From the NCBI RefSeq assembly GCF_034008315.1, contig NZ_CP125377.1, positions 3,918,001-3,982,000 on the forward strand: a stretch of 64,000 nt of DNA, written 5' to 3'. Source of the stretch: Pseudomonas sp. P8_241 (lineage in GTDB: Bacteria; Pseudomonadota; Gammaproteobacteria; Pseudomonadales; Pseudomonadaceae). This document shows positions 10,044 to 29,492 of the stretch, one piece after another (positions within the stretch are counted from its first letter, which is position 1; the number at the start of each line of letters is the position of its first letter). The position numbers and the translations under genes were made by a program. The notes below the pieces were generated by a model that did not search any database, was not told the origin of the DNA, and saw only the letters and a program-made list of their open reading frames with translations.

Positions 10044-10934
10044 TTACCCGGCGTCCTGCAGGACGAGTTCGCGTAAGGTATCGAGGAACAACTTAAGCAC
10101 CGGTGAGTCATCGTCTGCGCGGTACGTGGCGTACAACGGCACTTCCGGCAATGCCGGGGTCAGGCGTCGAAACACCAGTCCGGCCGGTGCCAATTGCTCG
10201 ATGGACGCCGGCAACAACGCCACGCCGAAACCGGCCCGGACCAGACTCAGCAGCGTTTGCACCTCGATCACTTGCTGGCGGATCTGCGGCGTAAACCCGG
10301 CCTGGATACAGCACTGAAACAGAAAATCGGCGAACCGCGACTGCTTCAGCTCCAGCGCCACAAAGGGTTCCCGGGCCAGGTCCGATGGCGCCAGGGTTTC
10401 CCGTGTTGCCAGCGGATGATCGGCCGGCATGACCACTCGGATCGGCTCGTAGATCAACAGTTCGTTACGCAACTGCGGATCGTCGTAACCAACCCGAAAC
10501 ACACAGGCATCGATGCGCTTCTCCTTCAACGCCTTGACCTGCGCCGCCGGGGTCATTTCATGCAGACGCCAGTTGACGTGGGGATAACGCTCGCGGAACA
10601 GGTGCAAAGCCCGGGGCAGCACACCGACCATCACCGAGCTGATCATGCCGATTTCCAGCTCGCCCAACTGGCCACGGCCGGTCTGGCGGGTGAGGTCCAA
10701 GGCGCGGTTGAGCTGTTCGAACACCAGCGGCGCCTGTTCCTTGAGCATCTGCCCGGCAGCGGTCAACTCAACCCGGTGATGACTGCGTTCGAACAGCGGT
10801 GTTCCCAGTTCCTCCTCCAGCAGACGAATCTGCTGACTCAGTGGTGGTTGGCAAATGTGCAACCGGGTGGCGGCGCGGCCAAAATGCAGCTCTTCGGCCA
10901 GCGCCATGAAGTAACGCAGCAAGCGCAAGTCCAT
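10044..10934 (-). CDS. LysR-family regulator, last gene of the iorAB operon
   Basis: 296 aa. The N-terminal winged helix reads LRYFMALAEELHFGRAATRL, then QPPLSQQIRLLEEELGTPLF, of the CatM/BenM-like LysR branch. The remainder is the effector-binding domain. The start lies 6 nt after the end of the molybdenum hydroxylase gene on the same strand, so it is probably co-transcribed with iorAB and senses that enzyme's substrate or product. Confidence 0.9.
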   Translation of the reverse strand: MDLRLLRYFMALAEELHFGRAATRLHICQPPLSQQIRLLEEELGTPLFERSHHRVELTAAGQMLKEQAPLVFEQLNRALDLTRQTGRGQLGELEIGMISSVMVGVLPRALHLFRERYPHVNWRLHEMTPAAQVKALKEKRIDACVFRVGYDDPQLRNELLIYEPIRVVMPADHPLATRETLAPSDLAREPFVALELKQSRFADFLFQCCIQAGFTPQIRQQVIEVQTLLSLVRAGFGVALLPASIEQLAPAGLVFRRLTPALPEVPLYATYRADDDSPVLKLFLDTLRELVLQDAG

Positions 10935-10940
10935 ACCCGG

Positions 10941-13145
10941 TTATCCCAAAATCAATGGTGTCGAGCGCTGGCGCACCCCGGTCAGGCTGAACAACGCGTT
11001 GGCAATGGCCGGGGCCACCGAAGGGCTGCCCAGTTCGCCAACACCACCCGGTTTAGTCGGTTCGCCGTCGACGACCAGAATGTCCACTAATGGCATGTCC
11101 GACATGCGCGGCACCCGATAATCGTGGAAATTACTCTGCACCACCCTGCCCTGTTTGATGTCCATTTGATCGAACAACGCGTGGCCGAGCCCCCACATCA
11201 AGCCTCCGTAGATTTGCTCTTCGACGCCACCGGGCGACACCGCGAGGCCGCAATCGACAACGCAGGTGAGCTTGTCGACCTTGATCGCGCCGTCCTTCTT
11301 CGACAGGCGCGCGACCACTGCGATGAAACTGGTGTAACCCTGATTGGTGGCGATCCCCAGCGATGTCCCCTCCGGTAATGGCTTACCCCAACCGGCGCGT
11401 TCGGCGGCGCTTTTCAGCACCGCGACATGCCTTGGCCGGTCTTGCATGTGGGCCAGGCGAAAGGCCAACGGATCCTGCCCTGCGCCATGGGCCAGTTCAT
11501 CCATGAAGCTTTCCACGGCGAACACGTTGGGAATGAAACTCACCGAGCGATACCAGCCGCTGGGCACGTCGCTTTCGTGTTTGACCCAGACCAGGTCCAG
11601 GTTCGCCGGGCGATAGGCAAAATCCCAGGCGGTGATGGCTTCGGTGGTGCTGTAATCCATCTTGTCCGGGCGCTCGAAGTAGCCCGGTTCCCATTGTTCC
11701 GGTGAGGCTGGCGACACCGCGTTGAGCTGGAGTGCGGTCAAACGTCCCTGCGCATCCAGCGCCCCTTTCGCCCGGTGCAATGTGGCCGGGTGCATAAACA
11801 ATGAGCGCATTTCATCTTCGCGGCTGTTCATCAACTTCACCGGCACCTTGGCCTGTTGCGCCAGGTAGGCCACTTCAAACAGCCAATACTTGGCTTCCCG
11901 CGCACCGAAGCTGCCACCGGACACCAGCTCGTTGATGGTGACCTTGTCCTTGGCGAGCTTGCACACGACGTGCGCCGCTTCCAGCGCCGATGACGGCACC
12001 TGCACCCCGCCCCAGTAGGTGATGGCGTTGTCCTTGACCTGCGCAGTGATGCAGATCGGTTCCAGCGGGTTCTGCACTTTGTACGGCATGCGGTAATCGG
12101 CTTCGAGCAGCTTCGCGGCGACCGGCCATTGCGCACTCACATCTCCCGCAGCCATGGCAGAGACCCGTTGCGCGCCTTTGTCGCTCAGCGCTGCCGTTTG
12201 GGCCTTGACCAGTTCATCGCTGTCGAAACCGGCCAAGGGGGAATCGCTCCATTGCACCTTCAGCAGTGCCCGGCCCTGATGCGCGGCCCAATAGTTGTCG
12301 GCCAGCACCGAGACGCCTTCCAGGTTGCCGCCGAGCACATCCGGCCGCCCCGGCACCACAATCACCTTGCGTACACCCGGTACTTGCAGCGTCGCGGCCG
12401 AGTCCACCGACAGCACTTTAGCGCCCACCACCGGTGTGCGCTGGATGACCGCCACCAGCATGTCCGGCAACACTACGTCGATGCTGTACTGAAAGCGTCC
12501 GCAGACCTTGGCCTGGGCATCGCGTTTGTGCCGCAGTTTGCCGATGTATTTGAACTGCGACGGATCCTTGAGCGTGACCTTGGCGGGCGCAGGCAGATGC
12601 GCAGCAACGTCGACCAGTTCGCCATAACCCAGGCTGCGCTTGCTCGCGGCATGAACGACGCGGCCCTCCTCGGTCATGCAGCTCTCAGGACTGACTTTCC
12701 ACTGTTTGGCAGCCGCCGTGATCAACAACGCTCGCGCCGTGGCGCCGGCCATGCGCAGGCGGTCGTACTCCAGCGAAACGCTGGTGCTGCCGCCGGTGGA
12801 AAAAACTTTCCAGATCGGGTGAATGTAAGTTTCGAAAAACGGATCTTCGGGCGAGATCACCTGCACTGTCATCGGGTTCACGTCCAGCTCCTCGGCCACG
12901 CAGGCGGCCAAGGCCGTATGCGTTCCGGTGCCGGAATCGTGCTTGTGCACCACCAGTTTCACGGTGCCGTCCGGCAGGATCCGCACCCAGGCGTTGGGTT
13001 CGAACTCGCCAGCCGGCGCCGGGGCTTTCGGGTCGGTCGCAGCAAGGCTCGAAGGCAGGTAAAACGCAATGGCCAACCCGCAAGCAAGGGTCGCGCTTTG
13101 CTTGAGAAAACCGCGTCGCGAAAGATCCATCGAGGAGATCGTCAT
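10941..13145 (-). CDS. iorB: Molybdopterin large subunit, isoquinoline 1-oxidoreductase type
   Basis: 734 aa, the IorB branch of the xanthine dehydrogenase family, which hydroxylates N-heteroaromatic rings or oxidises aldehydes. The N-terminus SRRGFLKQSATLACGLAIAF is a twin-arginine export signal, so the enzyme probably folds in the cytoplasm and works in the periplasm. SGGSFGAREA and GWYRSVSFIPNVFAVESFMD belong to the Mo-cofactor site; GGVGELGSPSVAPAIANA is the C-terminal family block with the catalytic Glu. ATG overlaps the iorA stop (TGATG). An XdhC maturation gene lies 10 kb away at 23.1 kb. Substrate unknown. Confidence 0.88.
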   Translation of the reverse strand: MTISSMDLSRRGFLKQSATLACGLAIAFYLPSSLAATDPKAPAPAGEFEPNAWVRILPDGTVKLVVHKHDSGTGTHTALAACVAEELDVNPMTVQVISPEDPFFETYIHPIWKVFSTGGSTSVSLEYDRLRMAGATARALLITAAAKQWKVSPESCMTEEGRVVHAASKRSLGYGELVDVAAHLPAPAKVTLKDPSQFKYIGKLRHKRDAQAKVCGRFQYSIDVVLPDMLVAVIQRTPVVGAKVLSVDSAATLQVPGVRKVIVVPGRPDVLGGNLEGVSVLADNYWAAHQGRALLKVQWSDSPLAGFDSDELVKAQTAALSDKGAQRVSAMAAGDVSAQWPVAAKLLEADYRMPYKVQNPLEPICITAQVKDNAITYWGGVQVPSSALEAAHVVCKLAKDKVTINELVSGGSFGAREAKYWLFEVAYLAQQAKVPVKLMNSREDEMRSLFMHPATLHRAKGALDAQGRLTALQLNAVSPASPEQWEPGYFERPDKMDYSTTEAITAWDFAYRPANLDLVWVKHESDVPSGWYRSVSFIPNVFAVESFMDELAHGAGQDPLAFRLAHMQDRPRHVAVLKSAAERAGWGKPLPEGTSLGIATNQGYTSFIAVVARLSKKDGAIKVDKLTCVVDCGLAVSPGGVEEQIYGGLMWGLGHALFDQMDIKQGRVVQSNFHDYRVPRMSDMPLVDILVVDGEPTKPGGVGELGSPSVAPAIANALFSLTGVRQRSTPLILG

Positions 13146-13609
13146 CACGCCTCCTTCGGCGCGGAAGCCGCGCGCTTGATCGCTTTGTTGATGCGCCCGT
13201 AAGTGCCGCAACGGCATACGTTGCCGGACATGGCATTGCGGATCGAATCGTCGGTGACCGCCGCGCCGGTATTGAGCAGCGCAGCGGCGGACATGATCTG
13301 ACCGGATTGACAGTAACCGCATTGCGGGACATCTTCGGCAACCCAGGCCAGTTGCAGCGGGTGCTGTTCGGTCGGCGACAAACCTTCGATGGTGGTGATG
13401 CTGTGCCCCGCCACGGCGGCGAGCGGCAGCTGGCAGGAACGCACCGCGACACCATCCAGGTGCACGGTGCAGGCGCCGCACAGGCCCATGCCGCAACCGA
13501 ACTTGGTGCCGGTGAGTTTCAAGTGGTCACGCAACACCCATAACAAGGGCATGGAGGGCGATGTCTCTACCAGCTCGTGTCGTTCGCCGTTTACCGTGAA
13601 TTCGATCAT
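13145..13609 (-). CDS. iorA: [2Fe-2S] small subunit, isoquinoline 1-oxidoreductase type
   Basis: 154 aa from ATG at 13609, which has GGAG 7 nt upstream; the longer in-frame reading lacks a ribosome site. Plant-type cluster [18 protein letters not shown] and the second cluster CGYCQSGQ plus GNVCRCGTY are complete. It passes electrons from the Mo subunit. No FAD subunit and no cytochrome subunit accompany it, as in other IorAB enzymes; the acceptor is not in the neighbourhood. Carried as the heterodimer partner of the TAT-exported IorB. Confidence 0.9.
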
Positions 13610-13728
13610 TGTCAGGCTCCAAGAGAGCGGCCCGTCTTTGTGCAGGCCTGGTGATCGGATTATTGGAAGCCTTGTGAAAACGGGGCCAGCGACGATTTCT
13701 GCCATCCTGTGTAAGTAGGACTAACAGC

Positions 13729-14619
13729 ATGTACAAGCGATACCCGTCGGTGCAGTCCATGAATGCGTTTATCCAGGCGGCGCGCAGCGGCAGTTTCTCC
13801 AGCGCGGCGCGCAAGCTGGACCTGACCCACAGCGCCATCAGCCAGCAGATTCGCTCGCTGGAAGAATTCATCGGCCAGCCGTTGTTTGTGCGTGAAGGCG
13901 GCGGCAGCAACCTGACCGACGCCGGGCAGTTGTTCGCCAGTGTGCTGTCCGACGGCCTGGCGCAGATCGACCGGGCGCTGTCTTCGGTGAGGAATCGCAG
14001 CGTGGCGCAACGCCTGACCCTGGATGTCGACAGTGAGCTGGCCCAGAGCTGGCTCAACCCGCGCTTGCCGCAATTGCTGGATCTGCTGCCTGACCACGAG
14101 GTGGTGCTGTTATCGATGCCACGCTCCGACCGCAGCGCGTTCGAACGCGTGGACCTGGCTTTGCGCTACGGATATGGCGACTGGGAAGACTGCGAGATGA
14201 CGCAGATCTGCGGGGATCGGGTGATGGCGGTGGCCTCACCTGCGCTGCTGGAACGTTATGGTTTACAGTTGCCGCTGAGTCCGGTTCAGATCCTTGAATT
14301 ACCGTTGCTGGGTTATACGCGACGATCGTGGATTCCGTGGCTGGATGCGGCAGGCATGGAGCCCACCGAACCGCCGGCGCGGGTGGTGTTTGACAACGCG
14401 GCCAATCTGATCGCGGCTGCCGAAGCCGGGGTCGGTGCAGGACTGGTGCGTGGCTTGTTGGCGGCAGATGCGCTGCGCAGTGGGCGGTTGCTGGCGTTGA
14501 ACAATGCGAAGATTGCGGCGCATTACAACCTGTATGCGGTGTGGCCACCGGGTCAGGCCGAGCGGGTGGCGCCGGTGGTTGCAGCGGTCAAGCAGTTGGC
14601 TTTGCATACACAATCCTGA
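13729..14619 (+). CDS. LysR-family regulator (GcvA-like), divergent from iorAB
   Basis: 296 aa. Winged helix MNAFIQAARSGSFSSAARKL then THSAISQQIRSLEEFIGQPL. The domain order and length are standard. It is transcribed away from iorA with 119 nt between starts, the classic layout for a LysR protein that controls its divergent neighbour. The second LysR at 10044-10934 belongs to another branch, so two inputs may govern iorAB. Confidence 0.9.
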   Translation: MYKRYPSVQSMNAFIQAARSGSFSSAARKLDLTHSAISQQIRSLEEFIGQPLFVREGGGSNLTDAGQLFASVLSDGLAQIDRALSSVRNRSVAQRLTLDVDSELAQSWLNPRLPQLLDLLPDHEVVLLSMPRSDRSAFERVDLALRYGYGDWEDCEMTQICGDRVMAVASPALLERYGLQLPLSPVQILELPLLGYTRRSWIPWLDAAGMEPTEPPARVVFDNAANLIAAAEAGVGAGLVRGLLAADALRSGRLLALNNAKIAAHYNLYAVWPPGQAERVAPVVAAVKQLALHTQS

Positions 14620-14953: not shown

Positions 14954-15883
14954 ATGATCATCGATATCAGCTGCTATCCCACGGATCTCGTGGACCTCGC
15001 CTGGAGGCATGACGGAGACCCGTTCACCGGCGAGCGTCTGCTGGAGATGATGGATGGCCCGTACATGGTCAACGGCAAGCCTCGCCGCATCGACAAAGCC
15101 TTCATCCAGCCCCCGCAGGGCAACACCATCTACACCTGGACCGACGGCGACCTGACCGGTCGCGAGTCCATCGATGCCTACATGGCCTACACCCTGAAAA
15201 TGGTTCAGACCTACCCGGACCGCTTCATCGGCTGCTTCGTCTACAACCCGCGCTGCGGCGTGGAAAACGGCGTCGAGGCTATCGAGCGCTACGTCAAGGA
15301 ACACGGTTTCAAGATGGTGCAGATGCAAGCCAACATGCACGCCTACCGTCCCGACCGCGCCCTGGACTGGGTGCGCCCGTGCTTCGAAAAATGCGCCGAG
15401 CTGGGCATCCCGGTCAAGCTGCACACCGGTGACGGGCCGTACAGCATCCCGTCGGAATGGGTGCCGATGATCAAGGAATTCCCCAATGTCGATTTCATCA
15501 TGGCCCACTTCGGGGTACAGACCGGTGGCGTCTATGTGTTCGAACCGATGCAATGGGCGATGGAACTGCCCAACGTCTACTGCGAATCGGGCTGGTGCCT
15601 GCAATCGCGGATCGTCGAGTTCGCCAAGGTCCTGCCGACGCACAAAATCCTGTTCGGCACCGACACTCCGCCGAACGAACCGGGCATGTGGCTGCGCCTG
15701 CTGGAAGTGCTGTGCCACGAACCGCCGCAGGGTTTGAACCTCGACGAGGACACCCTCGAAGAGTACCTGGGCAACAACACCGCACGAATGATCGGCCTCG
15801 AACCGACCCCGCCGCCACGCACGGTTTGCGAAGCAGAGGCGCAGCTCAAGCGCCCCGTCACCACGCAACTGGCCAGGAGCTGA
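14954..15883 (+). CDS. Amidohydrolase-family protein lacking the HxH motif
   Basis: 309 aa from ATG at 14954, preceded by AGGAG; upstream in-frame codons lack a ribosome site. ACMSD-like amidohydrolase (metal-dependent decarboxylase or hydrolase superfamily). The first metal motif, H6-x-H8 in its downstream paralogue, is S6-C7-Y8 here. The later metal positions H157 (LHTGDGPY), H185 (MAHFG) and D237 (FGTDTPP) remain. About half the residues match the next gene, so it arose by tandem duplication. It may be a regulatory or structural partner of the paralogue, or bind metal differently. Four nt separate the two genes. Confidence 0.85.
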   Translation: MIIDISCYPTDLVDLAWRHDGDPFTGERLLEMMDGPYMVNGKPRRIDKAFIQPPQGNTIYTWTDGDLTGRESIDAYMAYTLKMVQTYPDRFIGCFVYNPRCGVENGVEAIERYVKEHGFKMVQMQANMHAYRPDRALDWVRPCFEKCAELGIPVKLHTGDGPYSIPSEWVPMIKEFPNVDFIMAHFGVQTGGVYVFEPMQWAMELPNVYCESGWCLQSRIVEFAKVLPTHKILFGTDTPPNEPGMWLRLLEVLCHEPPQGLNLDEDTLEEYLGNNTARMIGLEPTPPPRTVCEAEAQLKRPVTTQLARS

Positions 15884-15887
15884 ACCG

Positions 15888-16793
15888 ATGATTATCGACA
15901 CCCATCTGCACCCTACCAACCTGGTCGACGAGGCCTGGCGCCACACCGGCGAACCGTTCACCGGCGAGCGCATGCTCAAGCTGATGGACGGCCCGTACAT
16001 GATCAACGGCAAGCCACGCCGCATTGACATGGGCTTCATCCAGCCGCCACCGGGCAACACCGGCTATCGCGACGGCAACCGCCGGGGCCGTGAGGGCGTG
16101 CGTGACTACATGTCCTACGTTGCCGAACTCTGCGTGAAATACCCGGACCGCTTCATCGGCAACTTCAACTTCAACCCGCGCTGGGGACCGGAAAACGGTG
16201 CGGCGGAGCTGGAATTCCACATCAAGGAATACGGTTTCAAGATGCTCAAGCTGCACGCCAACATGCACGGCTATCGCCCGGACCGGGCGCTGGACTGGCT
16301 GCGCCCGGCGATGAAGGTCTGCGCCAAGTACAACATCGTGGTGCTGATCCACACCGGCGACGGGCCATACACCATTCCGACGATGTTCTACCCGATCATC
16401 CGCGAGTTCCCGATGGTCAATTTCATCATCGGTCACTTCGGCATCCAGACCGGGGGCAACTACTCGTTCGAAGCGTTCTGGATGGCCATGGACACGCCGA
16501 ACGTGTACTGCGAATCCGGCTGGTGCTTCCAGTCGCGGATCGTCGAGTTCGCCAAGGATTTGCCGCGCAACAAGATCGTGTTCGGCACCGACTCGCCGCC
16601 GAACGAACCAGGCATGTGGCTGCGCGAACTGGAGGTGTTGTGCTCACCGGCACCGCAAGGGCTGGGCATCGATGAGGATCACCTTGAGGACTACCTGGGC
16701 AACAACATCGCCCGGTTGTGCGGCATCGAACCGACACCGCCGCCCAAAGACCTGATCGAGGCGGACATTCGGCTGACCACGACGTACCTCTGA
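15888..16793 (+). CDS. Amidohydrolase-family protein with full metal site
   Basis: 301 aa. All superfamily metal ligands are visible: H6 and H8 (DTHLHP), H155 (IHTGDGPY), H183 (IGHFG) and D235 (FGTDSPP). The closest known families are ACMSD-like decarboxylases (alpha-amino-beta-carboxymuconate-semialdehyde, gamma-resorcylate and isoorotate decarboxylases). It follows its HxH-less twin by 4 nt and is followed after a REPIN by UbiD/UbiX genes. A hydrolytic role on a ring product is equally possible. Likely cytosolic, no signal peptide. Confidence 0.88.
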   Translation: MIIDTHLHPTNLVDEAWRHTGEPFTGERMLKLMDGPYMINGKPRRIDMGFIQPPPGNTGYRDGNRRGREGVRDYMSYVAELCVKYPDRFIGNFNFNPRWGPENGAAELEFHIKEYGFKMLKLHANMHGYRPDRALDWLRPAMKVCAKYNIVVLIHTGDGPYTIPTMFYPIIREFPMVNFIIGHFGIQTGGNYSFEAFWMAMDTPNVYCESGWCFQSRIVEFAKDLPRNKIVFGTDSPPNEPGMWLRELEVLCSPAPQGLGIDEDHLEDYLGNNIARLCGIEPTPPPKDLIEADIRLTTTYL

Positions 16794-16805
16794 CCCTCGA
16801 CCTCT

Positions 16806-16891
16806 CTGTAGGAGCCGGCTTGCTGGCGATGGTGTGTCAGTCGAAATCGATGCAGCTGACACTCCATCGCCAGCAAGCCGGCTCCTACAGG
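16806..16891. repeat. REPIN, GGCTTGCTGGCGA type
   Basis: Long, nearly perfect inverted arms with a central CGAAATCGATG. It lies inside the presumed operon, between the second amidohydrolase and the UbiD-like gene, and may change the relative mRNA levels of the two halves. Confidence 0.85.
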
Positions 16892-16922
16892 TGCACAGCA
16901 CTGCTTTTCACGAGGTGAAACC

Positions 16923-18308
16923 ATGACCCTCTCCACGCTCGGCGACACCCAGGATTTTCACGATTTTCTCGATGCCTATCGCCGGCAGTACCCGGACGAT
17001 GTGCTCACCGTCCAGCACTCCCTTTCAGCCGATCAGGACGTCACCGCCCTGGTCGATGCCCTCGCCACCCAGGGCCGCGATCCACTGCTGATCTGCGAAA
17101 AGGTCGGCCACTTCGGCGCGCCGGTGGTCACCAACCTGTTCGCCTCCCGCACCCGTATCGCCCGGATGTTTGGCGTTGCCCCGGCGCAACTGCACGAGAC
17201 ATTTCAACAGCGCGCCAACAACCCCATCGCCCCGCGCTACGTGGAAACCGGCCCGGTGCTTGATGAAATCTACGAAGGCGAAGCCGTGGACCTGGCGCTG
17301 CTGCCGATGCTCAAGCATTTCGACAGTGACCGCGGCCCGTACATCACCAACGCGATCATCATTGCCGAAGACCCGGTCACTGGCATCGCCAACATGAGCT
17401 ACCACCGCTCGATGCGCCATGCCCGCCAGACCCTCGCCACCAGCCTGCATTCACGCGGTCACCTGTGGCGCATGCTGCAAACCGCTCGCGAACGCGGCGA
17501 AGAACTACGCGTGGCCATGGTGGTCGGCGCACACCCGCTGTTCATGCTCGCAGCGGCGGCGCGTTTGCCGTTCGGCAGTGATGAGCGTGCGGTGGCCGGG
17601 GGCTTGTTCGGCGCACCGCTGGAGCTGGTGAAAACTCCGCGTTATGGCATCGGTGTGCCGGCGTCTGCGGAATTTGTCCTGGAGGGTGCGATTGACCCAG
17701 CGGCCTATGCCGAAGAAGGCCCGTTCGGGGAATTCAGCGGTTATTCCTCGGATCGCTCGACCAATAATGTGCTGCGGGTCGACACCCTGATGCGGCGCAA
17801 GGACGCCTGGCTGGTGGACGTGGTCGGCGGGCGCTACGCCGAGCACCTGACCCTGGCGCGGCTGCCGCGGGAAGCGGAAATGAGCGAAAAGCTCAAGGCA
17901 CGCTTCCCCGCCGTCACCGCCGTGCATTACCCGAACTCCGGCACGCATTTTCACTGTTACGTGGCGCTGGACCAAAGCCGTGACGGGGAGGCGCGGCAGA
18001 TCATGTTGGCCCTGCTCGGCTGGGACCCGTACCTGAAAACCGTGATCGCGGTGGACAGTGATATCGACATCAGCGACGACAGCCAAGTGCTGTGGGCGCT
18101 GGCCACGCACTTCCAGCCGCATCAGGACATCTTCGTCATCGACGGTTTGCCTGGCAGCCCACTGGACCCGTCGTCCTCGGTCAACGGCACCACCTCGCGC
18201 ATGGGCCTGGACGCCACACGCGGCTCGGGATTCGACGGGATCAAGGCGCAACTGGACCAGGACGTAATCGAGCGTGCCCGCGATCTGCTCAAGAGCTATC
18301 TGCCATGA
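16923..18308 (+). CDS. UbiD-family prenyl-FMN-dependent (de)carboxylase
   Basis: 461 aa, close to the usual UbiD length. Enzymes of this family use prenylated FMN to remove CO2 from aromatic, heteroaromatic or acrylic acids. EEGPFGEFSGYSS near residue 260 contains the paired catalytic acids (the E277/E282 pair of Fdc1). MSYHRSMR near residue 160 holds the conserved cofactor-side Arg region. GAGGTG precedes the ATG. The UbiX-like gene overlaps its stop by 4 nt, so the cofactor is made in step with the enzyme. This is not housekeeping ubiquinone UbiD: the neighbours are catabolic. Substrate unknown. Confidence 0.9.
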   Translation: MTLSTLGDTQDFHDFLDAYRRQYPDDVLTVQHSLSADQDVTALVDALATQGRDPLLICEKVGHFGAPVVTNLFASRTRIARMFGVAPAQLHETFQQRANNPIAPRYVETGPVLDEIYEGEAVDLALLPMLKHFDSDRGPYITNAIIIAEDPVTGIANMSYHRSMRHARQTLATSLHSRGHLWRMLQTARERGEELRVAMVVGAHPLFMLAAAARLPFGSDERAVAGGLFGAPLELVKTPRYGIGVPASAEFVLEGAIDPAAYAEEGPFGEFSGYSSDRSTNNVLRVDTLMRRKDAWLVDVVGGRYAEHLTLARLPREAEMSEKLKARFPAVTAVHYPNSGTHFHCYVALDQSRDGEARQIMLALLGWDPYLKTVIAVDSDIDISDDSQVLWALATHFQPHQDIFVIDGLPGSPLDPSSSVNGTTSRMGLDATRGSGFDGIKAQLDQDVIERARDLLKSYLP

Positions 18309-18934
18309 ACCGCCAGCGCATGGTGGTCGGCATCAGCGGTGCGTCCGGTTTTATCTATGGCGTGCGCCTGCTGGAGTTGCTCGCCGAACTTGATATCGAA
18401 AGCCATCTGATCATCAGCCGTGCCGCGCTGCTGACCATGGCCCACGAAACCGATTACAAGCTGGCCGATGTCACCGCACTGGCCAGCCATTACCACCGCG
18501 CCGACGACGTGGCCGCCGGGATCGCCAGCGGTTCGTTCCGCTGCCTGGGCATGGTGGTCGCGCCGTGTTCCATGCGCACCCTGGCGGAAATCGCCACCGG
18601 CACTTCATCGGGCCTGATCGGTCGCGCCGCCGACGTCACGCTCAAAGAACGCCGCACGCTGGTATTGATGGCCCGGGAAACCCCGCTGACCCTCGCCCAC
18701 CTGCGCAACATGACCGCTGTCACCGAGATGGGCGGGATCATCGCCCCGCCCGTCCCGGCCTTTTACGCCCGCCCACAAGACCTTGCGCAAATGGTCGACC
18801 ACAGCCTCGGCCGTGTCCTCGACCTGTTCGGCCTCGATGCCGGGACCGCACGACGCTGGAGAGAACCCACAACCCCCTGTAGGAGCGGGCTTGCCCGCGA
18901 TAGCGGTGGGTCAAGCAGCATCAAAGCCTGCTGA
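18305..18934 (+). CDS. ubiX: UbiX-like flavin prenyltransferase
   Basis: 209 aa. It attaches a dimethylallyl group to FMN to make prFMN for the UbiD partner. Family blocks are complete: VVGISGASGFIYGVRLLELL at the N-terminus, VVAPCSMRTLAEIATG near residue 85, RAADVTLKERRTLVLMARETPL and APPVPAFYARP. ATGA overlap with the UbiD gene. The normal protein should end shortly after RVLDLFGLD (about residue 180). The last 20 or so residues (PCRSGLARDSGG) are translated from a REP element, so the tail is probably non-functional. Confidence 0.9.
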   Translation: MNRQRMVVGISGASGFIYGVRLLELLAELDIESHLIISRAALLTMAHETDYKLADVTALASHYHRADDVAAGIASGSFRCLGMVVAPCSMRTLAEIATGTSSGLIGRAADVTLKERRTLVLMARETPLTLAHLRNMTAVTEMGGIIAPPVPAFYARPQDLAQMVDHSLGRVLDLFGLDAGTARRWREPTTPCRSGLARDSGGSSSIKAC

Positions 18935-18968
18935 TCCGCCCTCATCGCGAGCAAGCTTGCTCCTACAG
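18877..18968. repeat. REPIN overlapping the 3' end of ubiX
   Basis: Arms GTAGGAGCGGGCTTGCCCGCGA (from 18879) and TCGCGAGCAAGCTTGCTCCTAC (ending near 18967). The left arm lies within the coding frame of the UbiX-like gene. Confidence 0.85.
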
Positions 18969-19009: not shown

Positions 19010-20056
19010 ATGAACACGCCATTCAACGCCCCAACCCCCAACACCAAAATCCCGGTGACCATCCTCACAGGCTTCCTCGGTGCCGGTAAAACCACCCTGC
19101 TCAACTACATCCTCAAGGAAAACCACGGGCGCAAGATCGCCGTGATCGAGAACGAATTCGGCGAAGTCGGCATTGACGGCGACCTGGTGCTCAGTTCCGA
19201 GACCGAAGAAATCTACGAAATGGTCAACGGCTGCGTGTGCTGCACCGCCGAAGTCCGTGAAGACCTGGTGCGCATTGTCCGCGAACTGGTGGCACGGCCG
19301 GTGCGGCTGGATCACATCCTGATCGAAACCAGCGGTCTGGCCGACCCGTACCCGGTGGCCCAGAGCTTCTTCATCAACGACCCGATTGCCGATGAAGTGG
19401 AACTGGACGCCATCGTCACCATGGTCGACGCCAAGCACATCGCCCAACACCTGGAAGACCTGCAACTGGATGGCGTGGACAACCAGGCGGTGGATCAGAT
19501 CGTCTGCGCCGACCGCATCGTGATCAACAAGGTCGACCTGGTCAGCCCTGCCGACGTGGCGTCCCTGAGCGACAAGATCCGCGGGTTGAACGCCACGGCG
19601 GATCTGGTGACCTCCAGCTACGCCGAGATCGATCTGTCGAAGATCCTTGGCATCGGCGCCTTCGAGTCCACGCAAAAACTCATGGAGATCGGTGCCGAAC
19701 ACGATCACCACGCCGATGAGCATCACCACGACCATGACGACCTGGACCATGACCACGACCCAAGTGTGTCGTCGGTGGGCATCGCCGTGGATGGCGCGGT
19801 CAACCTGGGCGATTTCCATCGCTGGATCACCCAACTGCGCACCGAGCAGGCCGACAACCTGTACCGCATGAAAGGTGTGCTGGCGGTGGCCGATCAGGAC
19901 CAGCGCTATGTACTGCAAGGTGTGCACAGCCTCGTTGAGTTTCGTGCCTCCACCTTGTGGGGCAACGAACCGCGCTCGAGCAAGATCGTGTTTATCGGCC
20001 GCGACCTGGACCGCGCGGCGCTGAACCAGGGTTTTGCCGCCTGCCTGGCAGGCTGA
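19010..20056 (+). CDS. CobW/COG0523-family GTPase with His-rich loop
   Basis: 348 aa metal chaperone. Walker A GFLGAGKTT (residues 21-29), the metal-binding CxCC motif at C75, C77 and C78, NKVD for guanine specificity, and a histidine/aspartate-rich stretch near residues 229-248 (HDHHADEHHHDHDDLDHDHD). The C-terminal CobW_C domain follows. Such proteins deliver zinc or another metal to client enzymes. The metal-dependent amidohydrolases and the deaminase on either side are likely clients. AAGGAG precedes the ATG. Confidence 0.9.
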   Translation: MNTPFNAPTPNTKIPVTILTGFLGAGKTTLLNYILKENHGRKIAVIENEFGEVGIDGDLVLSSETEEIYEMVNGCVCCTAEVREDLVRIVRELVARPVRLDHILIETSGLADPYPVAQSFFINDPIADEVELDAIVTMVDAKHIAQHLEDLQLDGVDNQAVDQIVCADRIVINKVDLVSPADVASLSDKIRGLNATADLVTSSYAEIDLSKILGIGAFESTQKLMEIGAEHDHHADEHHHDHDDLDHDHDPSVSSVGIAVDGAVNLGDFHRWITQLRTEQADNLYRMKGVLAVADQDQRYVLQGVHSLVEFRASTLWGNEPRSSKIVFIGRDLDRAALNQGFAACLAG

Positions 20057-20128
20057 AAAAGGCATCGGAGCCGGTGGATGGCGGTTCCGGGCACATGAAT
20101 GACTGATGCATCGGGCAACACACAACAC

Positions 20129-20219
20129 CTGTAGGAGCTGGCTTGCCAGCGAAAGCGGACTGTCAGCCAACAAAGATGGCGACTGGTCGGCCGCCATCGC
20201 CAGCAAACCGGCTCCTACA
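20129..20219. repeat. REPIN, GGCTTGCCAGC family
   Basis: Inverted arms begin at 20131 and end near 20219, between cobW and the permease gene. The 234-nt gap must also hold any permease promoter. Confidence 0.85.
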
Positions 20220-20290
20220 TGGGCGACAGCGCCCGGCATCAGAACGAATACCCCTCTCTACCGAATAACAACAGCAAGAGGTGTTTCCCC

Positions 20291-21658
20291 ATGTCGTCAG
20301 CCACTACCCCTTCAAAACCCATCGTCACCCTCCATCCCGTCGACCAGGTGTTATCGGTGCGACAAATGCTCACCCTCGGCCTGCAACACATGGCCGTGTC
20401 GTACATCGGTGCCATCGCCGTGCCGTTGATTGTCGCCAGTGCATTGAAAATGTCCCAGGCCGATACCGTCGTCCTGATCAGCACCACGTTGTTCTGCTCC
20501 GGTATCGCCACACTCCTGCAAACCGTCGGCTTCTGGAAATTCGGTGTGCGTCTGCCGATTCTCCAGGGCGTGGCCTTCAGCAGCGTGGGCCCGGTGATTG
20601 CCATCGGCAGCAACCCCGAGGTCGGCTTTGCCGGGGTTTGCGGGGCGGTGATAGGCGCGGGGATTTTCACCATGCTCGCCGCGCCGTTCGTGGGGCGCTT
20701 GCGTCGGTTCTTTCCACCCGTGGTCACCGGATGCATCGTCACGGTGATTGGTTTGCAGCTGTTTCCAATTGCCTATGAGTGGGTGGGTGGCGGGCGTCAT
20801 GCCGCCGATTTCGGTGCGCCGGCGTACCTCGCGGTCGCAGCGGTGGTGTTACTGACCATCCTGCTGGTCAACCGTTTTGGCAGCCCGATGTTGCGCAACA
20901 TGGCGGTGCTGGTGGGCATGCTCGTCGGGGCCGGGCTCGCTTACGGGATGGGCATGGGCAGTTTTCACAGCGTGCAGGAGTCGCCGTGGCTGACCGTACC
21001 CTACCCGTTCTACTTTGGCTTGCCGACCTTCAGCCTGATCCCCATCGCCACCATGGTGGTGGTGATGATCGTGCAGATGGTCGAGTCCATGGGGTTGTTC
21101 GTGGCCATCGGCGACATCGTCGACAAACCGGTGGAAGAAAAACAAGTGATCAACGGCCTGCGCGCCAACGGTCTGGCCAGCACCATTGCCGGGATGTTCG
21201 CCGCGTTTCCGTTCATTGCCTTCATGGAGAACGTCGGGCTGGTGATCCTCACCGGCGTGCGCAGTCGCTGGGTGGTGGCTGTCAGCGGCTTGCTGATGTG
21301 CTCGGTGGCCCTGGTCCCGAAGGCCGGCGCAATCATTGCGGCGATGCCGACCGCGGCCCTTGGCGGTGCCGGGATCGCAATGTTTGGCGTGGTGGCCGCG
21401 GCAGGGATTCAGACCCTGGCCAAGGTCGACTACGAGCGCAATCGCTACAACGTGCTGATCGTCGGTTTCACCATTGCCGCCGCGTTGGTGCCGGTATTGG
21501 CACCGGCCTTGTTCAAGCAATTACCCGAGTGGTCGCAACCGTTCCTGCACAGCAGCGTGGTGATCGCCTGCCTGGTGTCGGTGTTGCTCAACGCCGCCCT
21601 CAACGGTGTCAGCGTGCCTGATGCCGCCGCCAGCAAATCCGCTTCCCATAGCCTCTGA
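20291..21658 (+). CDS. NCS2-family nucleobase:cation symporter (xanthine/uracil permease)
   Basis: 455 aa from ATG at 20291, with AGAGG about 9 nt before it; the reading from 20219 begins inside a REP. Inner-membrane transporter with about 14 hydrophobic segments. NCS2 signatures: TLGLQHMAVSYIGAIAVPLI near the N-terminus, VEMG-type MIVQMVESMGLFVAIGDIV in the middle, and AFMENVGLVILTGVRSRWVV. It brings in xanthine, urate, uracil or a similar ring. The next gene starts 12 nt after its stop and is a purine-type deaminase, so a purine or related heterocycle is the likely cargo. Confidence 0.92.
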   Translation: MSSATTPSKPIVTLHPVDQVLSVRQMLTLGLQHMAVSYIGAIAVPLIVASALKMSQADTVVLISTTLFCSGIATLLQTVGFWKFGVRLPILQGVAFSSVGPVIAIGSNPEVGFAGVCGAVIGAGIFTMLAAPFVGRLRRFFPPVVTGCIVTVIGLQLFPIAYEWVGGGRHAADFGAPAYLAVAAVVLLTILLVNRFGSPMLRNMAVLVGMLVGAGLAYGMGMGSFHSVQESPWLTVPYPFYFGLPTFSLIPIATMVVVMIVQMVESMGLFVAIGDIVDKPVEEKQVINGLRANGLASTIAGMFAAFPFIAFMENVGLVILTGVRSRWVVAVSGLLMCSVALVPKAGAIIAAMPTAALGGAGIAMFGVVAAAGIQTLAKVDYERNRYNVLIVGFTIAAALVPVLAPALFKQLPEWSQPFLHSSVVIACLVSVLLNAALNGVSVPDAAASKSASHSL

Positions 21659-21670: not shown

Positions 21671-23059
21671 ATGACTCAACTTCAAAACATCCTGATCAAA
21701 AACCCGGTGGCAGTGATGACCGGCCTGCGTGGCCCGCGTGCGCGGGCCGGTGCCGTGGACATCCGCATCGTCAACGGTCGCATCGCCGAAATGGCCGCAG
21801 GCCTTGAAGCGCAACCCGGCGAACGGGTGATCGATGCGCGCCATTCGATCGTCTATCCGGGCTGGATCAACACTCACCATCACCTGTTCCAGAACTTGCT
21901 CAAAGCCGTGCCTGAAGGGTTGAATCAGGACTTGCAAGGCTGGTTGGCCAGCGTGCCCTACCCGCGTCTCAACCGTTTCACCCCGCAACTGGCGCGGATC
22001 GCCGCACGGCTGGGCATGGCCGAGCTGCTGCTGTCGGGGGTGACCACCTGCGCCGATCACCATTACCTCTACCACGCCAACGGCACCACCGAGACCGGTG
22101 ACCTGCTGTTCGACATGGCCGATGAGTTCGGCCTGCGCTTCGTGTTGTGCCGGGGCGGCGCGCTGGAATCGGCCAGCGCCCACCCGGGCTTCTCGAAAAC
22201 CGCGCTGCAACCGGAAACCCTCGACCAGATGGTCGGCGATATCGAACGCCTGAAATCGCTTTATCACCAGGACACGCCCGATGCGATGCGCCGCGTCGTG
22301 GTGGCGCCGACCACGCCAACCTTCTCGCTGCCGCCGACGCTGTTGCGCGAACTGGCGCACACCGCCCGTGGCCTCGGCTTGCGCTTGCACACACACTTGT
22401 CCGAAACGCAGAACTACGTGAATTTCTGCCGTGAGAAATACAACTGCCTGCCGGTGGAGTTCGTCGCCGAACACGAATGGCTTGGCCCGGATGTGTGGTT
22501 CGCCCATGCGGTGCACATGCAGCCCGGTGAAATCCGCATGCTCGCGCAAACCGGCACCGGGGTTTCCCATTGCCCGGTGAGCAATGCGCGCCTGGGCAGT
22601 GGTGTCGCGCCGATCCCGCAAATGTTCGAGGCGGGTGTGCCGATTTCCCTTGGAGTGGATGGCGTGGCGTCGAACGAGTCCGGGAGCATGGTCGGCGAGG
22701 CGAATACCGCGTGGTTGATTCACCGCGCGGAACAAGGTGCCTCGGCAACCACCGCCGAAGACGTCATTCACTGGGGCACGGCCGGTGGTGCGCAGGTGTT
22801 GGGACTGGGCGCAGTCGGCACCCTCGAAGTCGGGCAAACGGCGGATCTGGTGATCTATGGCCTCGACCATCCGCGCTTCTTCGGTTTCCACGACATTGCC
22901 GTGGCACCCGTGGTGGCCGGTGAACCGATTGCCGTGCGCTACAGCCTGGTGGGCGGTCGCGTGGTGGTGGATGACGGCGTGATTCCGGGGCTGGACGTGC
23001 AGCAAATGCGCGCCGAGGCGTGGGATGGGGTGAGGCAGTTGATGAATGTAGACGACTGA
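21671..23059 (+). CDS. 8-oxoguanine deaminase-like amidohydrolase
   Basis: 462 aa cytosolic deaminase of the guanine/8-oxoguanine/isoxanthopterin group (also related to atrazine chlorohydrolase). Zinc ligands: H69-x-H71 in PGWINTHHHLFQ, H in RLHTHLSE near residue 245, H in FAHAVHM and D in SLGVDGVASNE near 330; GVSHCPVSNARLGSG is the family's substrate loop. It would convert 8-oxoguanine to urate or act on a similar ring. It sits in an apparent transport-deaminate-oxidise series with the NCS2 permease and XdhC. Confidence 0.85.
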   Translation: MTQLQNILIKNPVAVMTGLRGPRARAGAVDIRIVNGRIAEMAAGLEAQPGERVIDARHSIVYPGWINTHHHLFQNLLKAVPEGLNQDLQGWLASVPYPRLNRFTPQLARIAARLGMAELLLSGVTTCADHHYLYHANGTTETGDLLFDMADEFGLRFVLCRGGALESASAHPGFSKTALQPETLDQMVGDIERLKSLYHQDTPDAMRRVVVAPTTPTFSLPPTLLRELAHTARGLGLRLHTHLSETQNYVNFCREKYNCLPVEFVAEHEWLGPDVWFAHAVHMQPGEIRMLAQTGTGVSHCPVSNARLGSGVAPIPQMFEAGVPISLGVDGVASNESGSMVGEANTAWLIHRAEQGASATTAEDVIHWGTAGGAQVLGLGAVGTLEVGQTADLVIYGLDHPRFFGFHDIAVAPVVAGEPIAVRYSLVGGRVVVDDGVIPGLDVQQMRAEAWDGVRQLMNVDD

Positions 23060-23112: not shown

Positions 23113-23139
23113 GGATTGCGTCATATTCAGGTGAATGCC

Positions 23140-24285
23140 ATGTCCGGTATCAACGATCTGCTACAAGCCATCGACACTGCCACCCAAACCGGTGAAGAAA
23201 CCGTCCTCGCCACCGTGGTCAAGGTCGAAGGCTCGGCCTATCGCCGCCCTGGCGCGCGCATGCTCATTCCGCTGCACGGCCGTACCGTCGGCACCGTCAG
23301 CGGCGGTTGCCTGGAACAGGACCTGGCGAAAAAAGCCTGGTGGCTGACCGACTCCGGCGAGCCCGTGGTGCGTCGCTACAGTACCGGCGCGACCGAAGAC
23401 GAAGACGACGAGCAAAGCGCCCTGACCTTTGGCCTCGGCTGCAACGGCACGGTGTTCGTGCTGCTTGAACGCCTTCGGGCGAAAAACCCGTCACCTGTCA
23501 TCGACCTGTTGCGCCGCGTCCGCGAACGCCAACAACCGGCCGCCATGGCCACGGTCATTGCGACCTCACGCAATGCCACGGCGCGGGTCGGTGACCGGTT
23601 GCACTCGGACTGCGATGACGCCCTGCACAACCGGCCATTACGCAGCGCCATCCGCAATGACCTGCACAAGACACTTCTACAGAAAAAATCATCGATTCGG
23701 CTCTACACCGACGCCCGTGGCGAAGTCGAAGTGTTCTTCGAATACATCGCCCCGCCACCACGCCTGGTGATCTTCGGTGCCGGTCATGACGCGCAGCCGC
23801 TGGTGCGCATGGCGAAACTGCTGAACTGGCACGTCAGCGTCATCGACAGTCGCAGCCACTTTGCCCGACCCGAACGCTTCCCGCAGGCAGACGCCGTGAT
23901 CTTCGCCAACCTCGACAACCCGTTCGACCTGCACCCACTGATCGACGGCGCGGCGGTGGCCGTGATGACCCACAGTTACCGCCAGGACCGCCATTGGCTC
24001 GGTCAAGTGCTGCAAGCCGCGCCCGCCTACATCGGCCAACTCGGCCCCAAGGAACGTACCGAACGTCTGCTGGCGGACATCGGCCGCAATTCGTCAGCCC
24101 TGCATTACCCAATGGGTCTCGACCTCGGCGGCGATGCCCCGGAAAGTGTGGCGCTGTCGATACTCGCGGAGATGACGGCGGTGTTGAACCAACGCCAGGG
24201 CGGGATGCTCAGGCACCGGCGCAAGCCGATTCATCAGGCGGATTTACTGGTCAGTGAAAAACTTGCGGCCATGGCAGATTTGTAG
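23140..24285 (+). CDS. xdhC: XdhC/CoxI-family molybdenum enzyme maturation protein
   Basis: 381 aa from ATG at 23140 (AGGTG upstream); the reading from 23020 starts in the previous gene. Family proteins bind Mo cofactor, help add the terminal sulfur and load xanthine dehydrogenase-type enzymes. GTVSGGCLEQDL lies near residue 50 and a Rossmann motif LVIFGAGHDAQPLVRMA near 207. No xanthine dehydrogenase gene lies beside it; the nearest candidate client in the window is IorAB at 11-13.6 kb. Its TAG stop is part of the flanking REP. Confidence 0.9.
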   Translation: MSGINDLLQAIDTATQTGEETVLATVVKVEGSAYRRPGARMLIPLHGRTVGTVSGGCLEQDLAKKAWWLTDSGEPVVRRYSTGATEDEDDEQSALTFGLGCNGTVFVLLERLRAKNPSPVIDLLRRVRERQQPAAMATVIATSRNATARVGDRLHSDCDDALHNRPLRSAIRNDLHKTLLQKKSSIRLYTDARGEVEVFFEYIAPPPRLVIFGAGHDAQPLVRMAKLLNWHVSVIDSRSHFARPERFPQADAVIFANLDNPFDLHPLIDGAAVAVMTHSYRQDRHWLGQVLQAAPAYIGQLGPKERTERLLADIGRNSSALHYPMGLDLGGDAPESVALSILAEMTAVLNQRQGGMLRHRRKPIHQADLLVSEKLAAMADL

Positions 24286-24370
24286 GAGCTGGCTTGCCAG
24301 CGAAGACGGTTGCACAATCGACACTTGTATCGTCTGATGCACCGCTTTCGCTGGCAAGCCAGCTCCTACA
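24281..24370. repeat. REPIN between convergent genes, supplying both stop codons
   Basis: Arms start at 24283 and end at 24370. The TAG within GTAGGAGC is the stop of xdhC on the plus strand (24283-24285) and of the ureidopropionase gene on the minus strand (24368-24366). Confidence 0.88.
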
Positions 24371-25649
24371 GGGGTGTTTGAGCGCAGGCCAACGCTGCCG
24401 ACGCCGCCAGCATCGCTCGCAGCAACACCGCGCACCCGGCGGCCAGATCATCCGGCGCGGCGTTTTCGATTTCGTTGTGGCTGATGCCGCCCTCGCATGG
24501 CACAAAAATCATCCCGGCCGGGCCGAGTTCGGCGAGGAAGATCGCGTCGTGCCCGGCACCGCTGACGATGTCCATGTGCGACAGTCCCAACCCCTGGGCG
24601 GCACCGCGTACGGCTTCGACGCAACCTTTGTCGAAGTACAGCGGCGGGAAATCGGCGGTTGGCGTGAGCTCAAAGGTCAGGCCGTGTTCATCGCAGGTGG
24701 TCTCGATGACTTCGCGCACCTGGGCAATCATCGAATCCAGCCGGGCCGGTTCCAGGTGCCGGAAATCGAGGGTCATGCGCACTTCACCCGGGATGACGTT
24801 ACGTGAACCGGGATAGGCTTGCAGGCAGCCGACCGTGCCACAGGCGTGAGGCTGATGAGCGAGTGCTGCGCGATTGACCGCACCGACGATCACCGCAGCG
24901 CCGACCAGGGCGTCCTTGCGCAAGTGCATGGGGGTCGGACCGGCATGCGCTTCGACGCCGCGCAGTTTCAGGTCAAACCATTTTTGCCCGAGTGCGCCCA
25001 TCACCACGCCGATGGTTTTGCGTTCGTCTTCAAGGATCGGGCCTTGCTCGATGTGCGCTTCAAAGTAAGCGCCAACCTTGTGCCCGCTGACCTTGCGCGG
25101 TCCCGCGTAACCGATGGCGTTGAGCGCTTCGCCAACTGTCACGCCCTCGGCGTCGACCTTGGCCAGGGTTTCCTCCAGGGTGAATTTCTCGGCGAAGACG
25201 CCGGAGCCCATCATGCACGGGGCGAAGCGAGAGCCCTCTTCGTTGGTCCAGACCACCACCTCCAGCGGCGCTTCGGTTTCGATGTTCAGGTCGTTGAGGG
25301 TACGCAGCACTTCGACGCCCGCCAGCACACCGAAGCAGCCGTCGAACTTGCCGCCAGTGGGTTGGGTGTCGATGTGGCTGCCGGTCATCACTGGCGGCAG
25401 ATCCGGATTGCGTCCCGGGCGCCGGGCGAAAATATTGCCTACCGCGTCAATGCTGACGGTGCAGCCTGCATCGGTACACCAATTGACGAAGATGTCACGG
25501 GCCTGCCGATCCAGGTCAGTCAGGGCCAGGCGACAGACGCCGCCCTTGACCGTCGCGCCGAGTTTGGCCAGTTCCATGAGCGACTGCCACAGCCGGTCGC
25601 GGTTGATGTGCTGATGGGTGGATTGCAGAACGTCTATGGCCGCGTTCAT
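24366..25649 (-). CDS. pydC: M20-family N-carbamoyl amidohydrolase (beta-ureidopropionase)
   Basis: 427 aa metal-dependent hydrolase of the HyuC/AmaB/allantoate group. It removes carbamoyl groups, here most likely from N-carbamoyl-beta-alanine, the last step of reductive uracil breakdown. Metal motifs: GSHIDTQPTGGKFDG near residues 90-104, WTNEEGSRF near 137, HIEQGP near 200, and the C-terminal SGAGHDA. AGGAG lies 7 nt before the ATG. It belongs with the dihydropyrimidinase and PreTA genes across the divergent promoter. Allantoate or L-carbamoyl amino acid hydrolysis is an alternative. Confidence 0.88.
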   Translation of the reverse strand: MNAAIDVLQSTHQHINRDRLWQSLMELAKLGATVKGGVCRLALTDLDRQARDIFVNWCTDAGCTVSIDAVGNIFARRPGRNPDLPPVMTGSHIDTQPTGGKFDGCFGVLAGVEVLRTLNDLNIETEAPLEVVVWTNEEGSRFAPCMMGSGVFAEKFTLEETLAKVDAEGVTVGEALNAIGYAGPRKVSGHKVGAYFEAHIEQGPILEDERKTIGVVMGALGQKWFDLKLRGVEAHAGPTPMHLRKDALVGAAVIVGAVNRAALAHQPHACGTVGCLQAYPGSRNVIPGEVRMTLDFRHLEPARLDSMIAQVREVIETTCDEHGLTFELTPTADFPPLYFDKGCVEAVRGAAQGLGLSHMDIVSGAGHDAIFLAELGPAGMIFVPCEGGISHNEIENAAPDDLAAGCAVLLRAMLAASAALACAQTPL

Positions 25650-25712
25650 GAATGATCTCCTCAGGCTGTTTTATGGATTTCTTCAGGCAGTTTGTCGGCG
25701 TGATGGAGGCCG

Positions 25713-25780
25713 CCATCGCTGGCAAGCCAGCTCCTACAGGGGATCGCATTTCAATTGTAGGAGCTGGCTTGCCAGCGATG
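25713..25780. repeat. REPIN with GGATCGCATTTCAA spacer
   Basis: GGCTTGCCAGC-family arms around a short spacer. The spacer is nearly identical to that of the REPIN at 29354-29420, so one copy probably derives from the other. Confidence 0.88.
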
Positions 25781-25790
25781 AGGCCCTCCC

Positions 25791-27275: not shown

Positions 27276-29338
<2,063 letters not shown>

Positions 29339-29353
29339 GATCGGCCTTCGGCC

Positions 29354-29420
29354 TATCGCTGGCAAGCCAGCGCCTACAAGGGATCGCATTTCAAACTGTA
29401 GGAGCTGGCTTGCCAGCGAA
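29354..29420. repeat. REPIN, near-copy of the one at 25713
   Basis: GGCTTGCCAGC-family arms with the GGATCGCATTTCAA spacer, between hydA and preT. The hydA-preT gap of about 150 nt is filled mainly by this element. Confidence 0.88.
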
Positions 29421-29492
29421 GGCGTCCTCGCAGGCAACGAAAAACCAATGCCCATCAGAGGCAGCACCTCAAATAACCGTGAGGCCAATACC

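Follow-up and report, generated by a model that had tools for sequence, protein, structure and literature searches.

The 64,000-nucleotide window analyzed here (positions 3,918,001 to 3,982,000 of contig NZ_CP125377.1) lies in the 6.39 Mb, one-contig genome of Pseudomonas sp. P8_241. It encodes two adjacent amidohydrolase paralogues, AH1 and AH2, followed by a UbiD-family decarboxylase and a UbiX-family flavin prenyltransferase. AH1, which lacks the HxH motif of AH2, is no product of local decay or chance; it is a constant partner of AH2 in the proteobacterial samples. A possible function of the cluster, which we propose tentatively and with less than even confidence, is import of a pterin (e.g., isoxanthopterin or folate-derived lumazine) and its degradation to xanthine, with AH1/AH2 as tetrahydroxypteridine cycloisomerase (EC 5.5.1.3) and UbiD decarboxylating xanthine-8-carboxylate. 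It is more doubtful that AH1 and AH2 form a two-subunit cycloisomerase, the metal-free paralogue completing or shaping the site of its sister, with UbiD as a xanthine-8-carboxylate decarboxylase dependent on prenylated flavin mononucleotide (prFMN), and that these would be the first genes for bacterial pterin-to-purine conversion. The basis of the proposed pathway is the genes and their motifs, the pairing, the co-occurrence of a deaminase and the nearest solved relatives.

If correct, the proposal would provide genes for bacterial pterin-to-xanthine enzymology that reportedly dates from the 1960s, including the contraction of a six- to a five-membered ring. It would also tie an amidohydrolase to a paralogue stripped of metal ligands, and give the UbiD family a purine-type substrate. 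The first-pass annotation knew of no described pathway with this exact gene set, and our literature search, which had most subscription papers outside its coverage, likewise turned up no description of the cluster, no gene for EC 5.5.1.3 and no UbiD with a purine or pterin substrate.

Conservation of the amidohydrolase pair

A scan of genome contigs with alignment of both AH proteins gave 316 confirmed stretches; locus counts refer to the best 80 of the 316. The order AH1, AH2, UbiD was found in 80/80 loci, as was a UbiX gene within the locus. With six plasmid loci added (86 in total), AH1 and AH2 are separated by -4 to 65 bp (median 4 bp), and UbiX is immediately 3' of UbiD in 83/86. Taxa with the cluster include Pseudomonas, Burkholderiales, Marinobacterium, Sinorhizobium, Paracoccus and others. 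The nearest named loci are from Pseudomonas, among them Pseudomonas sp. Irchel s3f7 (L003), whose AH2 is 100% identical to that of the window.

Three genome samples, in which AH copies were counted rather than motifs read, gave the same picture. The pair was identified in 20 of 199 Pseudomonas genomes (exactly two neighbouring AH copies in each), in 38 of 200 genomes from one Burkholderiales family (so named from loci shared with the best-80 set; exactly two copies in each), and in 4 of 398 genomes sampled phylum-wide (including the window genome; two copies in each). A UbiD at E<=1e-100 was found in exactly the 20 Pseudomonas genomes that have the pair. A plasmid collection contributed 91 records with 182 AH places, two in every row listed. 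Thus, the pair is conserved with UbiD and UbiX, and the absence of the HxH-less gene from most clusters, named in the first-pass annotation as a refuting outcome, is seen in no proteobacterial sample (the gene is present in 80/80 loci). HxH relatives of AH2 occur as proteins in Actinobacteria and Chloroflexi (e.g., P0136, P0139, P0153); the constancy of the pair is that of the proteobacterial samples.

Residues lost and retained in AH1

The reading frames start MIIDISCYPT (AH1) and MIIDTHLHPT (AH2), so the earlier reading of S6-C7-Y8 in the former and H6-L7-H8 in the latter was correct. The frame and the alignment of AH1 also bear out the presence of H157, H185 and D237. The two proteins are identical at 190 of 298 positions (64%), and both match the PF04909 profile (138 bits for AH1 and 157 bits for AH2, cut-off 26.4). 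The signature of the metal-dependent members of this family (an HxH closing strand 1, two further His and an Asp) is complete in AH2 and incomplete in AH1. Residues 6-8 are SCY in 86/86 AH1 and HLH in 86/86 AH2 across the 80 genome loci and six plasmid loci.

A wider comparison included 198 AH1 and 155 AH2, with database proteins assigned by motif (4/183, in which the start could not be read, were excluded). Fixation of 90% or more within each group, but with a different residue in the other, was seen at only ten positions. Four of these are S6, Y8, Q123 and Q125 in AH1 versus H6, H8, K121 and H123 in AH2; the losses at Q123 and Q125 are missing from the first-pass annotation. AH1 retains H129, H157 and H185 in 198/198 sequences and D237 in 188/198. 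In this motif-sorted set, His8 is present in 9/198 AH1, and AH2 has H155 and H183 in 155/155 and D235 in 152/155. Because H129, H157 and H185 are retained while the equivalents of H6, H8, K121 and H123 are lost, the alignment indicates that AH1 is not subject to random decay: putative metal and pocket residues are gone and the remainder has been kept. A minor AH1 subgroup (P0074, P0075 and similar) has ACH in place of SCY, and at least P0075 is without the strand-8 Asp.

A tree of 112 rows (thinned to at least 260 residues and <92% identity) served as an independent check on motif sorting. A single branch (support 100/99) separates all 59 HxH-less rows from the rest, with no HxH row among them, and thus HxH was lost (or gained) once. 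The AH1 clade spans Gamma-, Beta- and Alphaproteobacteria. Median identities to the window proteins, over the 40 more distant loci (L048, L049, L051-L082 and plasmid loci L091-L096), are 89% (AH2), 84% (AH1), 76% (UbiD) and 64% (IorB), with the AH1 and AH2 values inflated because loci were ranked by AH similarity.

A heteromer with metal in AH2 alone, as suggested in the first-pass annotation, is compatible with these sequence data. AH2 would be the metal-bearing catalytic subunit, supplied with metal by the CobW GTPase of the cluster, and AH1 a degenerate obligate partner, most likely within the heteromer. The two could instead be separate enzymes of successive steps that form no complex, AH2 hydrolyzing the amide and AH1 acting in metal-free ring closure or as a binding protein. 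We consider such a division improbable. A net isomerization requires both hydrolysis and dehydration, and the AH1 pocket is not freely decaying, as the retained histidines and the prevalence of D237 attest; however, the median gap of 4 bp and the fact that the genes are never apart in the proteobacterial samples suggest equal stoichiometry, and D237 is lost in 10/198 AH1. That AH1 is a decaying product without function, as its lost metal ligands could imply, is extremely improbable and was rejected, given its retained residues, its single clade over three proteobacterial classes, its place among the best-conserved cluster proteins (in loci chosen by AH similarity) and its presence in every locus and positive genome examined.

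Predicted route from pterin to xanthine

We predict that an NCS2 permease imports the pteridine. A cog0402-type deaminase (Deam) would convert the 2-amino to an oxo group, giving compounds at the lumazine level (isoxanthopterin to 7-hydroxylumazine), and a molybdenum hydroxylase would add oxo groups up to 2,4,6,7-tetrahydroxypteridine. AH1 and AH2 would open the cyclic oxamide by hydrolysis and close it again into an imidazole ring, yielding xanthine-8-carboxylate (EC 5.5.1.3); an amidohydrolase pair suits this ring contraction because cyclic amide hydrolysis and re-closure are needed. UbiD, with prFMN made by UbiX, would then convert xanthine-8-carboxylate to xanthine and CO2. The xanthine could be consumed by the host xanthine dehydrogenase, which was identified above the curated cut-off (1297 bits). 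McNutt and Damle reportedly described this sequence in 1964, from isoxanthopterin via 7-hydroxylumazine, tetrahydroxypteridine and xanthine-8-carboxylate to xanthine, and we take it as the simplest route in which every gene of the cluster has a part. EC 5.5.1.3 reportedly joins tetrahydroxypteridine to xanthine-8-carboxylate; these two are isomers. To our knowledge, no gene or sequence has been assigned to this activity. The two compounds appear as alternative assignments of one mass in an excerpt of PMC5941619.

Among the conserved neighbours are a deaminase (of the 2paj group or cytosine-deaminase-like), a xanthine-type permease and a molybdenum hydroxylase, which together favour a fused heterocycle bearing 2-amino and 4-oxo groups as the substrate, a pterin being the simplest case. 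Isoorotate, orotate, pyrrole-2-carboxylate, furandicarboxylate and nicotinate, listed as candidates in the first-pass annotation, are not supported. An isoorotate/pyrimidine reading, drawn from pyd-type genes at 24366-32135, was rejected; only 26/80 loci have the PydC-like gene close to the pair.

The nearest solved relative of Deam is 2paj (454 bits, versus 296 for 3hpa and 281 for 7ww2), and the protein falls in NCBIfam PRK12393 (779 bits, cut-off 543). The PDB name of 2paj is only 'putative cytosine/guanine deaminase'; we equate it with the isoxanthopterin deaminase that Hall et al. reportedly described in 2010. The in-cluster deaminase of a Massilia locus (L068) scores 539 bits to 2paj. 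Deam had been filed directly as isoxanthopterin deaminase, an assignment reduced to 'same subfamily' once a closer copy was found (L098). This closer relative of 2paj (L098:9592-11058) adjoins ABC transporter genes, with no AH pair there. The pterin deaminase Arad3529 is said to have been modelled on cytosine deaminase. In PMC9513972, Arad3529 and the Variovorax pterin deaminase (PDA) are placed among cyclic-amidine deaminases.

The UbiD protein has the UbiD_N, UbiD and UbiD_C domains and passes the TIGR00148 cut-off. Among solved structures it is closest to 6h6v (218 bits), ahead of AnInD (7p9q, 144 bits). The 'HR' and EGPFGE stretches, of which the arginine and the Glu are presumably catalytic, align with 6h6v, and the overlapping UbiX gene would supply prFMN. 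We take 6h6v to be HmfF, acting on a five-ring heteroaromatic 2-carboxylate. Since xanthine-8-carboxylate is of the same kind, it is a plausible UbiD substrate.

UbiD could also act early in pterin catabolism, on lumazine- or pterin-6-carboxylate produced by folate side-chain cleavage, in which case AH1/AH2 would only open the ring and the end product would not be xanthine. The deaminase association fits such a route equally well. It is nonetheless unlikely, given that the closest solved UbiD relative presumably takes a five-ring heteroaromatic acid, and that the cluster in the window shows no gene for side-chain cleavage. In its favour, lumazine-6-carboxylate is a candidate intermediate of folate breakdown (PMC9513972), and an enzyme of the wider family of Deam is reported to deaminate pterin-6-carboxylate also (PMC5270733).

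A deaminase linked to the pair and its replacement

Deam at 91% identity or more is encoded in all 20 AH-positive Pseudomonas genomes and in 0/179 others. At 67% or more it is found in 37/38 AH-positive Burkholderiales genomes and in 0/162 others (Fisher P 7e-28 and 1e-39, respectively, uncorrected for shared ancestry). Paralogues of 48-55% occur in pair-less genomes (10/179 Pseudomonas, 9/162 Burkholderiales). The Deam gene is often 12-16 kb from the pair (e.g., G328, G674, G708), and in G762 is on another contig. G255 and G781 likewise have Deam and the pair on different contigs, although in these genomes the pair is <12 kb from a contig's first base. Eleven of the 80 loci are without Deam, and six of these (L023, L026, L028, L032, L058, L078) end 0.4-3.1 kb past UbiD. 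The genomes of L069, L071 and L080 encode Deam outside the locus stretch (68-72%), and the L076 genome encodes the other deaminase described below (69%).

Alphaproteobacterial loci (L091 of Sinorhizobium meliloti pSymB, L092 Ponticoccus, L093 Ensifer, L096 Shinella and L094 Paracoccus) have this other deaminase <12 kb from the pair. It is a cytosine-deaminase-like protein of 431-436 residues (431 in S. meliloti), distant from Deam (32% over 152 residues). In L094 (20613-21759) the gene immediately follows the permease in two separate pieces with no annotated gene, and is possibly broken or affected by a sequencing error. In the plasmid collection, 84 records with the cytosine-deaminase-like enzyme match by genus the 83 alphaproteobacterial AH records, save one extra Paracoccus (63 Sinorhizobium, 11 Ensifer, 2 Shinella, 1 Ponticoccus and 1 Ochrobactrum in both; Paracoccus 5 for AH and 6 for the deaminase), a match of genus tallies and listed rows rather than accession by accession. 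Eight plasmid records carry Deam at 60% or more, and their genera equal those of the 8 AH records from Betaproteobacteria. A Deam paralogue of 47-51% is present in another 12 records, from genera for which the collection shows no pair.

The type of molybdenum hydroxylase also varies, being IorAB-like in Pseudomonas and many Burkholderiales and a three-subunit enzyme resembling xanthine dehydrogenase in L091, L092, L093 and L096. No NCS2 permease is annotated in L092. The cluster thus combines a fixed core (AH1, AH2, UbiD, UbiX and CobW) with an exchangeable deaminase and hydroxylase, which suggests that deamination and hydroxylation both belong to its pathway. S. meliloti SMb20132 is tabulated as a probable dehydrogenase (EC 1.17.1.4) in an excerpt of PMC12542648; its number and annotation suggest that it is part of the cluster of the pair.

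Several observations weigh against the pterin-to-xanthine proposal. The molybdenum hydroxylase is not constant in the locus (IorB in 69/80), and none is annotated within the 31 kb of L094. Neither close form of the deaminase was found in the L075 genome, and the sole Burkholderiales exception, G722 (a 720-contig assembly), has only a 53% Deam paralogue. The co-occurrence of Deam with the pair owes much to linkage in one cluster and partly reflects shared ancestry. Deam is a paralogue, not an orthologue, of 2paj; because a closer copy (L098, 661 bits) sits elsewhere in the same genome, Deam may act on another amino-heterocycle. A literature search for the EC 5.5.1.3 enzyme by name yielded nothing in the papers covered. 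AH2 has a weak partial match to 5-carboxyvanillate decarboxylase (LigW; E about 1e-5), and because LigW is among its weak solved relatives, AH2 could be a decarboxylase.

Alternatively, the cluster would degrade another amino-heterocycle (e.g., a purine- or pyrimidine-carboxylic acid). AH2 would then catalyze a metal-dependent, non-oxidative decarboxylation like that of LigW/ACMSD enzymes, and a second decarboxylation would fall to UbiD. The only relatives that AH1 and AH2 reach among solved structures are LigW and, more weakly, 4-oxalomesaconate hydratase, and the xanthine subfamily of the permease and the paralogy of Deam to 2paj would be in keeping with such a substrate. We give this assignment a low probability: K121 and H123 of AH2 align with Q and N of LigW, the breakdown of a simple pyrimidine acid would need neither deaminase nor molybdenum hydroxylase, and the downstream pyrimidine genes are inconstant.

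Gene content of the cluster

The cluster is larger than the gene set of the first-pass annotation, which was limited to the pair, UbiD and UbiX: the unit also includes the deaminase, xanthine-type permease, CobW GTPase, molybdenum hydroxylase and LysR regulators (Table 1). The UbiD and UbiX genes follow the pair directly, with the ATGA overlap already noted.

Table 1. Genes of the cluster in the window, with profile or structure matches and occurrence among the 80 loci.
Feature	Position	Strand	Evidence	Loci
LysR0, LysR-type regulator	10044..10934	-	PF03466/PF00126	73/80
IorB-like molybdenum-cofactor hydroxylase, large subunit	10941..13229	-	PF20256/PF02738	69/80
IorA-like [2Fe-2S] subunit	13145..13612 (ORF openable to 13705)	-	PF01799, PF00111	68/80
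LysR1, LysR-type regulator	13729..14619	+	PF03466/PF00126	65/80
AH1, HxH-less Amidohydro_2 paralogue (S6-C7-Y8), predicted non-catalytic/altered subunit	14954..15883	+		
AH2, HxH Amidohydro_2 paralogue (H6-L7-H8, K121, H123, H155, H183, D235), predicted catalytic subunit	15888..16793	+		
UbiD-family prFMN decarboxylase	16923..18308	+	PF01977/PF20695/PF20696; TIGR00148 above cut-off; 6h6v 218 bits	
UbiX-family flavin prenyltransferase	18305..18934	+	TIGR00421 235 bits, cut-off 109	80/80
CobW/COG0523 GTPase (GCVCC motif, His-rich loop), predicted metal loader	19010..20056	+	PF02492/PF07683	75/80
NCS2 permease, xanthine permease subfamily	20219..21658	+	TIGR03173 473 bits, cut-off 414	73/80
Deam, cog0402-type deaminase	21671..23059	+	2paj 454 bits; genome-level co-occurrence	69/80
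XdhC-type molybdenum-enzyme maturation factor	23137..24285	+	PF13478/PF02625	11/80

The CobW GTPase carries the His-rich stretch HDHHADEHHHDHDDLDHDHD; metal-loading COG0523 proteins often have such a stretch. XdhC was rejected as a core member on account of its presence in 11/80 loci, and is a local companion. Genes resembling those of reductive pyrimidine degradation follow at 24366-32135 (an M20 amidohydrolase, an NCS1 permease, a dihydropyrimidinase-like protein and two dehydrogenase subunits). They are beside the cluster only in part of the Pseudomonas loci, and we treat them as mere neighbours because the PydC-like gene (24366-25649) is near the pair in 26/80.

Additional genes were observed in individual loci. 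An aldolase-family gene (PRK06486 in L093) is located between the deaminase and a LysR gene in L093 (5363-6151) and L096 (5357-6157), where a role in side-chain removal is imaginable; a gamma-glutamyltransferase gene is annotated close by in both (Ensifer and Shinella, respectively). In Paraburkholderia (L071:14288-15037, L080:14257-15030), CobW is followed by an arylmalonate-decarboxylase/EutA-like protein below curated cut-offs (L071 scanned). Two proteins are encoded beside the pair in Cupriavidus (L069:5695-7639, L095:10695-12640): a YcaC-like hydrolase of the isochorismatase family, which scores below cut-off, and one of 340 residues without an NCBIfam match (L069 scanned for both).

A repetitive palindrome (GTAGGAGC..GCTTGC..GCGAT) occurs as inverted pairs at 16806-16890, 18877-18968, 20128-20219 and elsewhere, with 30 matches in the window versus 0 expected. 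One of these elements supplies the codons for the last UbiX residues.

Comparison with known systems

The predicted reaction of AH1 and AH2 is like that of EC 5.5.1.3 as reportedly described by McNutt and Damle in 1964, in that a cyclic oxamide is opened and re-closed, which suits a pair with the amidohydrolase fold. The assignment of EC 5.5.1.3, for which we know of no sequence, to AH1 and AH2 is putative. With Amidohydro_2 proteins of the ACMSD/LigW type (4inf, 4qs5, 2gwg) the pair has PF04909 in common, and AH2 retains HxH, H155, H183 and D235. The match to these structures, however, covers only about residues 77-190 (E 1e-5 to 5e-3), and LigW has Q and N where AH2 has K121 and H123. We know of no constant HxH-less partner in that family.

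The UbiD of the window shares its family, the 'HR' arginine and the EGPFGE stretch with the furandicarboxylate decarboxylase that we take to be HmfF (6h6v) and with AnInD (7p9q), but differs from both in neighbourhood and predicted substrate (218 and 144 bits, respectively). Deam is nearer to 2paj, presumably an isoxanthopterin deaminase, than to the 8-oxoguanine deaminase 7ww2, yet is a paralogue of the former. The cytosine-deaminase-like enzyme of the alphaproteobacterial clusters resembles, by description, Arad3529 and the Variovorax PDA, which are likewise cyclic-amidine deaminases.

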